50,738 nt of DNA from Gammaproteobacteria bacterium. Its GTDB lineage: Bacteria > Pseudomonadota > Gammaproteobacteria > Steroidobacterales > JABDKV01. Shown here piece after piece: positions 10,319-13,723 of the stretch (positions within the stretch are counted from its first letter, which is position 1; every line of letters begins with the position of its first letter). Made by a program: the position numbers and the translations under genes. The notes beneath the pieces were generated by a model. That model was given only the letters and a program-made list of their open reading frames with translations. It did not search any database and was not told the DNA's origin. The DNA lies in assembly GCA_013003425.1 (NCBI GenBank), contig JABDJB010000026.1:1-50738 (forward strand), read 5' to 3'.

Positions 10319-10334
10319 GCAGGCGTGTTTCCCA
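10319..10334 (-). promoter_or_regulatory. Weak sigma-54-like promoter candidate
   Basis: On the minus strand this site keeps GG and GC ten bases apart, as in -24/-12 promoters, but the flanking bases match the consensus only partly. It sits at the right distance for a short leader before the ATG at 10282. It is offered because the second VPxPA-CTERM gene has a much better version of the same element. Confidence 0.2.
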
Positions 10335-11229: not shown

Positions 11230-11910
11230 TCAGGATGGCCGCCGTGTCGCCAGGCCGAGCGCAAACAGTCCGGAGATCATCAGCTGCAGTGCAGCCGGGA
11301 TCGGCACCACTGCCATATCTATATTGATATCGCCACGGCTGCTGTTGCCCTGGGCATCTTCCGCCCAGAACCAGGCCGAGGCGCCAAAGTTCAGGTTCTT
11401 GTTGTTTGCACCAAAACCGATCTGGAATGCCGGGCCACGCTGCGTGATGATCAGGGTCGTGCCAGCCAGTGCTCCGATGCCGTCGAAGGTGCCGCTGAAG
11501 CCCGTGTAGTAGTACCAGGTTCCGGTATCGACCGGCCCGCCGTTGTCACTGTAAGCGCCGGACATCAGTTCCCGTTTCGGGCTGTCCGGTGGAGCGATGG
11601 CCGTTCGGCCAGACAACGACAGGGTTACCATGTAGCCGCTGCCGGCATCATCGATACTGTGAGCGTAGCCGCTGAACATGGCCGTACCGTCGTCGTATTC
11701 GATCAGCGTGCCGTCCGCGCCGGTAAACAGGTAATCCTGTCCGCTGATGGTAATTGCATGATCACCGCTGCCGGCGTAGTACTGCGCATCGGCCATCGCG
11801 GCACTCAACTCGTACGTACCAAAGGCGGTCGATGCCAGCGCACTGTCGGCCGCGGCACCGAGCAGGAACACCAGTGCCAGAATAATCACTTCGTTGTTGA
11901 TCTTTTTCAT
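11230..11910 (-). CDS. VPxPA-CTERM surface protein behind a sigma-54 promoter
   Basis: A 226-residue exported protein. Residues 1-27 are a signal peptide. The end carries VPIPAALQLM, a hydrophobic helix and a final RRPS, which is the exosortase-type VPxPA sorting signal. The body contains a beta-sandwich-like sequence (GTYELSAAMADAQYYAGSGDHAITISGQD) with repeated Tyr, Gly and Asp residues and no enzyme motif. A well-matched -24/-12 element lies 54-69 bases upstream of the ATG. Its stop is two bases from the stop of the convergent crotonase gene. The function is unknown; a matrix or surface role is inferred from the sorting tail. Confidence 0.83.
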   Translation of the reverse strand: MKKINNEVIILALVFLLGAAADSALASTAFGTYELSAAMADAQYYAGSGDHAITISGQDYLFTGADGTLIEYDDGTAMFSGYAHSIDDAGSGYMVTLSLSGRTAIAPPDSPKRELMSGAYSDNGGPVDTGTWYYYTGFSGTFDGIGALAGTTLIITQRGPAFQIGFGANNKNLNFGASAWFWAEDAQGNSSRGDINIDMAVVPIPAALQLMISGLFALGLATRRPS

Positions 11911-11963
11911 CGCATTGCCCGGTTAACTTAAAGCAGCCAGATCGCGGCTTCTGCAAAGAAAAA

Positions 11964-11979
11964 AGCAAGAACGATGCCA
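11964..11979 (-). promoter_or_regulatory. Sigma-54 (-24/-12) promoter
   Basis: Read on the minus strand the site is TGGCATCGTTCTTGCT. It matches the consensus TGGCAC-N5-TTGCW at every position except one (T for C), with the obligatory GG-N10-GC spacing. The predicted start site leaves a leader of roughly 40 bases before the ATG at 11910. In several species PEP-CTERM gene sets are controlled by sigma-54 with the PrsK/PrsR regulators, which fits this placement. GTTAACTTAA occurs at both 11922-11931 and 12027-12036, flanking the site. Confidence 0.7.
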
Positions 11980-12073
11980 TGACGCACAACTGACTGAGGC
12001 AACTGGAGTTTCGTTACCCGCGAGGTGTTAACTTAATTTGGCGGCGGTAAAAAAAACCGACAGCGGGGAGGAT

Positions 12074-13723
12074 CTAGCGGCGGCAATCGCCCGGCCGCGG
12101 CCGCACTGACGGATCATGCCTGCAACGTGCAGTTACCGTGACACGGTGATTAGCGCGGATGCCACGCAGTCGCGTGGTGCTGCCGTCTGCCCAGTGCACC
12201 GTAATCCGGTTCACCCGGCGTGCCCTGCCAAGCCCGAAATGCAGCACCTGCTCACTCTGGCCCAGGTAGGTTCCACCCGTGGTGACCTGCTGCACCTGGG
12301 TATCACGACGGGCCTTTACCGTTACCACCGCACCAATGCCCTGTGGCGCCAGTCGTGGATTCCTGTGCGTGTCGAAGCGCAGCTGCAACCAGTTCGCGTC
12401 TGCCGGCGCGTGCGGCGCCGAAATTATGTCGTTGCGATACAGCCGCAGCGGCTCTTCGTTAGACAAAATGACCAGGTCCATATCGCCATCGCGATCGTAG
12501 TCGAAATGCAGCATTGCGCGGCCTTCGCCGGTATGCGCCAGGCCCGCGCTCTCACCAATCTCCGCGAAATGCGCTCCATGCGAGCTGCGCCACAGGTAGC
12601 TGCGTTCGTTCACAAAGTTTGCGCCAGTAACCGGATCGTAGATTCGCCAGCCGTTCGTCATCGCCAGGTCGGTCCAGCCGTCGTTATCGAAGTCCACAGC
12701 GCTGGTCCCCCAGCCCCAGCCACCGTCGTTGACGCCGACTGCCGCAGACATCTCGCTGTAGATATGGTCACCGTGGTTGATATACAGCCCGTTGCCCCAG
12801 AATTCACTTTCGAAAGCATAGGTCGGCCAGATTGCGGTGATAAACCAGTCCGGCAGACCATCACGATTGAAGTCGGCAACAGCAGTACCCATGCCATTGT
12901 GCGCATTACCGATACTCCACTGCGTTGCGGGCAGCCCGCTACCCGGGTCCAGTTCAGTAAAAGTACCGTCGCGGTTGTTGCGGTAATAACGGTTAGTGCC
13001 GAAATCGCCGGCCACCAGCAATTCAGGAAAACGATCCCCGTCCATGTCTGCCCACACCGCGCCAAAGGCGTGGGTGCTGTCCTGGAACACGCCGGAGGTG
13101 CTCGTCACGTTAGTGAAGCTGCCGTTACCCTCGTTACGAAAAAGCCTGGCCCCCAGCACCGGACGGCTGTGCCAAGCCCCCACAAACAGGTCCAAATCGC
13201 CATCGAGATCGTAATCGCCGAATGCCGCACCGTAGCCGTCTTCGAAATTTTCAGTTGTCATGGCCACACCGGCCGCGACAGCGACATCGACAAAGCCATT
13301 GCCATCGTTGCGGTATAACAGGTGATGACCGGGCCCGGGCTGCTCGTCGCTTGGTCCAAAACTGGAGACGAACAGATCGTCATCCCCATCGTTGTCGTAA
13401 TCGCCAACCGTCGCCCCTACACCGCGATGCGGGCGGGCAATCCCCCAGCGCGCTGCCTGATCGCTGAAAGTCCCATCGCCGTTATTGATGTATAGCCGAT
13501 CGGGGGTTGCGCCGCCGCCAATCACGTAAAGGTCCGGATAGCCGTCGCTATTGAAATCGCCGATTGCCCCGCCACCGGCCATTGGGCCAGCGCGGTGCCC
13601 CAGCGGCTGATCGTGCACAAAGCTCAGCCCCGCGCCGGCGGTTTGCTCGCTGAAAACGAGCGGTGCAGCCAAACAGATAACAGGCTGCAGGGTAAGCAGT
13701 AGAGTCAATAAACGCAGCATCAT
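12074..13723 (-). CDS. Secreted FG-GAP/VCBS repeat protein with ASPIC/UnbV domain
   Basis: A 549-residue exported protein of the CRTAC1-like group. A signal peptide covers residues 1-19. At least seven calcium-loop repeats of the form D-x-(N/D)-x-D-G-x-x-D-L follow (DFNSDGYPDLYV, DYDNDGDDDLFV, DYDLDGDLDLFVG, DMDGDRFPELLV, DFNRDGLPDWFI, DFDNDGWTDLAM, DYDRDGDMDLVI), predicting an integrin-alpha-like seven-bladed propeller. Residues about 440-530 match the ASPIC/UnbV domain (GIGAVVTVKA ... GGTYLGQSEQVLHFGLG ... VHWADGSTT). Family members are secreted or surface proteins with largely unknown partners. It stands alone, with no operon neighbour. Confidence 0.87.
   Translation of the reverse strand: MMLRLLTLLLTLQPVICLAAPLVFSEQTAGAGLSFVHDQPLGHRAGPMAGGGAIGDFNSDGYPDLYVIGGGATPDRLYINNGDGTFSDQAARWGIARPHRGVGATVGDYDNDGDDDLFVSSFGPSDEQPGPGHHLLYRNDGNGFVDVAVAAGVAMTTENFEDGYGAAFGDYDLDGDLDLFVGAWHSRPVLGARLFRNEGNGSFTNVTSTSGVFQDSTHAFGAVWADMDGDRFPELLVAGDFGTNRYYRNNRDGTFTELDPGSGLPATQWSIGNAHNGMGTAVADFNRDGLPDWFITAIWPTYAFESEFWGNGLYINHGDHIYSEMSAAVGVNDGGWGWGTSAVDFDNDGWTDLAMTNGWRIYDPVTGANFVNERSYLWRSSHGAHFAEIGESAGLAHTGEGRAMLHFDYDRDGDMDLVILSNEEPLRLYRNDIISAPHAPADANWLQLRFDTHRNPRLAPQGIGAVVTVKARRDTQVQQVTTGGTYLGQSEQVLHFGLGRARRVNRITVHWADGSTTRLRGIRANHRVTVTARCRHDPSVRPRPGDCRR

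Follow-up and report, generated by a model that had tools for sequence, protein, structure and literature searches.

A predicted PrsR-type sigma-54 promoter of the PEP-CTERM-box kind upstream of a VPxPA-CTERM gene in a gammaproteobacterial genome

The locus considered here raises the question of whether a gene coding for a protein with a VPxPA-CTERM tail is transcribed from a sigma-54 promoter and, if so, with which other sorted proteins it might be expressed. The window, i.e. the whole stretch of DNA analysed (50,738 nucleotides), carries on its minus strand the predicted regulated gene P0002 (11230..11910), which codes for a 226-aa protein with a signal-peptide-like start, a predicted beta-rich domain and a VPIPA C-terminal tail. 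This tail, VPIPAALQLMISGLFALGLATRR (11239..11307, minus strand), is the presumed XrtD-type signal. It matches the VPLPA-CTERM profile (TIGR03370) with 22.6 bits in the genome search and 17.7 bits as a whole protein, against a cut-off of 25.35, while the tail of the orthologue in relative G002 exceeds that cut-off with 28.7 bits. The canonical PEP-CTERM model (TIGR02595) gave no match to P0002 at E 10 and none at its locus at E 0.5. The protein matched no Pfam family and no viral relative of it was found; its predicted fold is beta-rich (mean pLDDT 77.5), and a comparison with the PDB returned nothing at E 0.001 or better.

The preliminary description had placed ahead of this gene a minus-strand site with one deviation from the sigma-54 consensus and intact GG-N10-GC spacing, and the sequence of the window bears this out. 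The -24/-12 element TGGCATCGTTCTTGCT (11979..11964, minus strand), termed motif 2 of the PEP-CTERM box, differs from TGGCAC-N5-TTGCW at position 6 only (T for C) and is separated from the P0002 ATG (11910) by 53 nt. Scored with a matrix set by hand from consensus frequencies, it reached 16.5 bits, as compared to a maximum of 14.5 among 285 control ORFs (long ORFs of the same genome, each read from the first of its start codons). Taken singly, the element occurs at chance frequency within 50 kb, the window containing 32 sites with at most two mismatches to the consensus, where shuffled sequences lead one to expect 35.1. In the standard sigma-54 geometry transcription starts 12 nt beyond the -12 element, which would place the start at 11953 (minus strand), 12 nt past the -12 C, with a leader of about 43 nt.

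The promoter becomes convincing through a second element, through two orthologues that keep both elements, and through the presence of RpoN, PrsK, PrsR, PrsT and XrtA in the genome. The second element, GTCGGTTTTTTTTAC (12061..12047, minus strand), has the form GTCG-N7-TTAC and lies 67 nt upstream of TGGCATCGTTCTTGCT; it is the presumed PrsR site, or motif 1. Under a matrix derived from xEP genes only, motif 1 of P0002 (GTCGGTTTTTTTTACC) scored 16.3 bits, while the control ORFs (282 positions) had a maximum of 14.6 and a 99th percentile of 9.6. The matrix has its origin in a Gibbs search of 22 regions upstream of xEP genes, drawn from four genomes within the genus, which yielded TCGG-N5-TTTACA at 326 bits versus 237-253 bits for five shuffled sets; the shuffled sets were searched less deeply (2 x 40 restarts and rounds, against 6 x 60 for the real set), and the width of 17 and the upstream range were chosen after motif 1 was known from Haft 2006. 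Several of the 22 regions aligned poorly, and the final matrix comprised 15 xEP sites, being applied to the VPxPA genes afterwards.

Among the 17 VPxPA rows of the genome scored for motif 1 (L027, L034 and L037 being left out), four reached 14.9-19.4 bits, each of them accompanied by a sigma-54-like site of at least 11.6 bits. Another 12 scored no more than 5.8 bits, and the remaining one, L026, has too short a stretch of upstream DNA. In two of the low scorers, L021 and L030, a sigma-54-like site (10.8-10.9 bits) stands without motif 1.

Conservation of the pair was assessed in the orthologues of P0002. In G002 (62% identical) the sigma-54 site is perfect, TGGCACCGTTCTTGCT, and in G035, a member of another family (41% identical), it reads TGGCCCGAATCTTGCA; both keep GTCG-N7-TTAC at 65 nt while the flanks have diverged. 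Their motif 1 scores are 11.6 and 9.2 bits, respectively; the G035 value falls short of the 9.6 bits that mark the 99th percentile of the controls. The closest orthologue (G001, 65%) stands outside the comparison of promoters, its contig beginning 15 nt before the gene. A second box-bearing VPxPA family, represented by C3:15242, likewise retains the box in G002 (C167) and in G003 (C6:19898, assigned to the family by its similar start).

A different picture emerges at P0001 (9521..10282, minus strand), the second VPxPA-CTERM gene of the locus. The order P0001, enoyl-CoA-hydratase-like gene (as read from its translation), P0002 is conserved in G002 and G001. The preliminary description had extended the same type of promoter to P0001 by way of a poorer site at 10319-10334. 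This site belongs to the background (4.1 bits, against a control median of 3.6), and P0001 lacks the box, as do its syntenic orthologues in G002 and G001 (73%), where sigma-54 scores are 1.1 and 4.0, so that P0001 is placed outside the regulon. The two neighbouring VPxPA genes thus appear to retain opposite regulation across relatives.

The genome (3.26 Mb in 115 contigs, 95.5% complete) codes for the machinery that such a promoter would call for. RpoN is present (476 bits, cut-off 277), and contig 6 carries side by side PrsR (717 bits, cut-off 502.6), PrsK (777, cut-off 300), PrsT (630, cut-off 312) and an EpsB2-type transferase (568, cut-off 393). The exosortase XrtA (316 bits, cut-off 208) and an XrtA-system amidotransferase lie on the same contig, about 15 kb from the Prs genes, and a second exosortase, XrtD, of the VPLPA-CTERM-specific type, is found on contig 67 (589.6 bits, cut-off 400). 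Tails of the xEP kind are presumably processed by XrtA and VPxPA tails by XrtD. The earlier reading of sigma-54 control with a PrsR-type activator is thus supported by RpoN, by PrsK, PrsR and PrsT, and by both exosortases, all of them above their cut-offs.

Genome-wide, TGGCAY-N5-TTGCW has 17 matches, versus three for the reversed pattern. Seven of these precede flgA-like and flgB-like genes, a type IV pilin-like gene, three xEP genes and P0002 (judged from translations), and the rest are inside or near other ORFs or have no gene resolved. When gene starts were chosen by a signal-peptide heuristic, sigma-54 sites of at least 13 bits within 250 nt upstream were found at 7/12 PEP-type genes, 3/20 VPxPA genes and 6/285 control ORFs. 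Read on the other strand, the upstream regions of the PEP-type and VPxPA genes contained no such site. The 20 VPxPA rows derive from 22 VPLPA matches, two of which (L038 and L040) are xEP genes. At the same threshold, three relatives of the genus gave 9/16 xEP, 3/24 VPxPA and 2/11 unclassed genes, 51 of 55 rows being counted; loci were available for 30 of their 46 PEP-CTERM matches.

The full box was defined as GTYR-N7-TTAC at a spacing of 45-112 nt from a sigma-54 site scoring at least 10.5. It precedes 4/17 usable VPxPA genes of the genome, 6/11 xEP genes and 0/278 control ORFs, where L026 and L027 were left out for their short upstream DNA and the PxPG-tail genes L037 and L071 were counted separately. 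The figure of 4/17 includes two relaxations made post hoc, GTTG in place of GTCG in motif 1 of L025 and GG in place of GC in the -12 element of L035 (shared by its two relatives L180 and L172); the strictest reading, without these two genes, gives 2/17, namely P0002 and C3:15242. In the relatives (50 rows; L143 and L178 were dropped as having no start, L165 and L053 as having no upstream DNA, L173 as out of frame) the box is present at 13/21 xEP and 4/26 VPxPA genes, and PxPG-tail genes have it in 0/2 cases in the genome and 0/3 in the relatives. The difference between VPxPA genes and controls (p = 7.7e-6 in the genome, 4.3e-5 in the relatives with the same controls) and that between xEP and VPxPA genes (p = 0.12 in the genome, not significant; 0.0019 in the relatives) carry optimistic p values, given the kinship within the genus, the widening to GTYR after L025 and the choice of P0002 for its site.

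The family of L035 (C111:8573), with L180 (G002 C141:744) and L172 (G003 C29:9122), keeps motif 1 at 64-65 nt, and its -12 element is TTGG instead of TTGC (TGGCACGATACTTGGA, TGGCACGAAAATTGGA).

The notion of a small VPxPA regulon enriched in -24/-12 sites therefore holds in part: box-bearing VPxPA genes exceed the controls, yet the regulon is not specific to VPxPA, the box being commoner at xEP genes. Membership of the VPxPA genes in general among the sigma-54 genes is rejected, 13 of the 17 usable ones lacking the box. The PrsR/sigma-54 promoter would seem to be common to the smaller part of the second sorting class rather than to mark out a VPxPA regulon.

In the four genus genomes the pair pattern was matched 33 times and its reversed form once. 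As read from translations, 19 of the 33 precede sorted proteins, three a DUF5658-like membrane protein (C78:84343, G003 C17 and G001 C460) and two a polysaccharide-export-like gene (C111:17775 and G001 C211); for the other nine the gene is ambiguous or none is convincing. At the polysaccharide-export-like genes (C111:17775-17870, G001 C211:1143-1238) the full box lies some 220-260 nt before the gene, implying a long leader, and a match in G002 (C170:2011) resembles it.

Taken together, these observations make it very probable that P0002 is transcribed from a PrsR-type sigma-54 promoter and that its VPxPA product is co-switched with xEP proteins. In this scheme the membrane kinase PrsK would phosphorylate PrsR, most likely the activator of P0002, which would occupy GTCGGTTTTTTTTAC at 12061..12047 and touch the polymerase via a DNA loop, a whole-turn spacing placing the two on the same face of the DNA. 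RNA polymerase with sigma-54 would then read P0002 from 11979..11964, starting at about 11953. The signal peptide would export the product, and XrtD is predicted to process its VPIPA tail. Since PrsK/PrsR belongs to the XrtA/exopolysaccharide cluster, switching on the xEP proteins would at the same time bring about the synthesis of a few VPxPA proteins, including P0002.

The crossing of sorting classes in this scheme would disappear if the promoter were as described and the VPIPA protein were processed by XrtA. We regard this as rather unlikely, though it has several points in its favour: the P0002 tail scores below the VPLPA cut-off, the W of VPxPAAxW is missing from two of the four VPxPA tails that go with a box (L020 and L036), and a homologue in an alphaproteobacterial MAG has a VPEPG tail, from which it follows that the family can switch tail class. 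Against it stand the XrtD gene, the G002 orthologue with its tail above the cut-off, and the box-bearing C110:1685, whose tail (VPVPAAVW, 31.9 bits) is clearly of the VPxPA type. The box-like pair of the alphaproteobacterial homologue is weak (10.0 and 13.6 bits).

It is improbable that a different NtrC-type activator, also encoded in the genome, drives the sigma-54 promoter in place of PrsR. The PrsR model has nine matches in the genome, and any of the eight below its cut-off could bind; moreover, the bipartite pattern also stands ahead of a non-coding unit in other families. Motif 1, however, is common to the xEP genes and is linked to PrsR by phylogenetic profile in Haft 2006 (PMC1569441), and DVUA0057, a predicted PEP-CTERM regulator of Desulfovibrio vulgaris, bound its five predicted PEP-CTERM targets, which were enriched in DAP-chip (PMC3333781). 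Most improbable of all is a chance sigma-54-like match with transcription from a sigma-70 promoter that escaped recognition. Single sites of equal quality do arise by chance in 50 kb, but here a second element lies at the proper distance, two orthologues conserve the arrangement and no control ORF of 278 has both elements (the lack of a sigma-70-type match at 11800-12300 says little, as just 0.1 is expected there).

The preferred reading, a PrsR-type sigma-54 promoter, has clear precedents. Haft 2006 (PMC1569441) describes proteobacterial PEP-CTERM genes preceded by a 17-nt motif ending in TTTACA together with a sigma-54 site, with a spacer of mean 62.8 nt (SD 10.6, range 32-92), and ties this box to PrsR, PrsK and PrsT. 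P0002 shares both elements, at 67 nt within that range, as well as the three Prs proteins and an exosortase; the genes there are TIGR02595 genes, whereas here a VPxPA tail without TIGR02595 match and discrete spacings are encountered. The P0002 promoter thus appears to be of the kind already described, now reaching a second sorting class. For pepA of Aquincola tertiaricarbonis (PMC9850573), a PEP-CTERM gene with -24/-12 motifs in common and a predicted upstream element, RpoN1-dependent transcription was demonstrated with an rpoN1 mutant and the start was determined. That gene codes for another protein in another bacterium, and DVUA0057 was studied by a binding assay in a further organism, whereas the P0002 promoter and its activator are predicted from sequence.

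The spacing between the two elements falls into classes. Within the genus, where 48-78 nt were permitted, the 33 matches lie at 52-55 (8), 64-68 (21) and 76-77 nt (3), with one at 49 nt that has no convincing gene; at some xEP genes the two elements stand further apart, at 83, 95 and 107-110 nt. Outside the genus, the 139 matches listed lie at 51-55 (15), 61-68 (68) and 74-77 nt (56), with none among them at 56-60 or 69-73. The step of about 11 nt corresponds to one helical turn, and cases of helically phased enhancer sites are known among other sigma-54 activators. Haft 2006 (PMC1569441) gives the mean, SD and range of the box spacing; the word helical occurs a single time in its text, within a reference, and phasing is not mentioned. 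A literature search, with subscription journals mostly outside it, found neither a VPxPA minority under an XrtA-linked switch nor quantised box spacing, and nothing relevant on VPLPA-CTERM, XrtD or PrsR with helical spacing.

Across the order, the pair pattern occurs in 99 of 196 genomes, with at least 150 matches, and the reversed pattern in none. Inspection of 29 matches in 28 new loci showed that 18 precede a non-coding unit (75-76 nt) and four a recognised sorted protein, the 11 matches other than the 18 having spacings of 54-55, 63-67, 75 and 76 nt. The idea that all order-level matches are PEP-CTERM promoters is thereby ruled out. As the 18 represent one orthologous RNA promoter, the 76-nt class is probably largely that promoter and not independent evidence, and the same pattern ahead of a non-coding unit in other genomes implies that the box need not mean PEP-CTERM control.

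A broader view may be offered tentatively, and at somewhat less than even confidence: the PrsR box may be a single switch that governs XrtA-type proteins, a conserved XrtD-type minority and a gene for EPS export, joined in further families of the order by a small RNA with AAN repeats; its activator and promoter sites would be separated by integral numbers of helical turns (about 54, 65 and 76 nt). Sequence evidence suggests that a regulator linked to XrtA and exopolysaccharide controls some proteins of the second class, in which case the substrate classes of the exosortases would not have to match the regulons. Quantised spacing could offer an inexpensive way of picking out true PrsR promoters and would provide a testable geometry of activator looping. 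In the order at large there are signs of a small RNA under a promoter of this type.

Homologues (L082-L095) of the P0002 domain, RGPAFQxGxGANxKN...GxSxWF, occur in other proteobacteria, a planctomycete and Flavobacteriaceae; the domain is repeated once, in L085, and in G022 (L056) it lies inside a long protein with an SD-rich tail.

The non-coding unit (L234-L243, L246, L248-L250, L253-L255 and L258; e.g. L234:1607-1836) is about 200 nt long and is preceded by GTCG-N7-TTACA and a sigma-54 site at 18 of the 28 order-level loci. A Rfam scan of seven of the 18 units had no hit reaching threshold at the unit (CrcZ 19.3 bits of 95, in L235), and its signature motifs were absent from the other 1.2 Mb examined, except for one motif in L090. 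It consists of a CGCACAAAAAAGG-like start, a TTCGACATCTG/CAGACATCGAA hairpin, AAN/CAACAACAATAA repeats and a terminator, a design which we take to be CrcZ-like, and in five of seven loci inspected an ABC-ATPase-like gene lies downstream.
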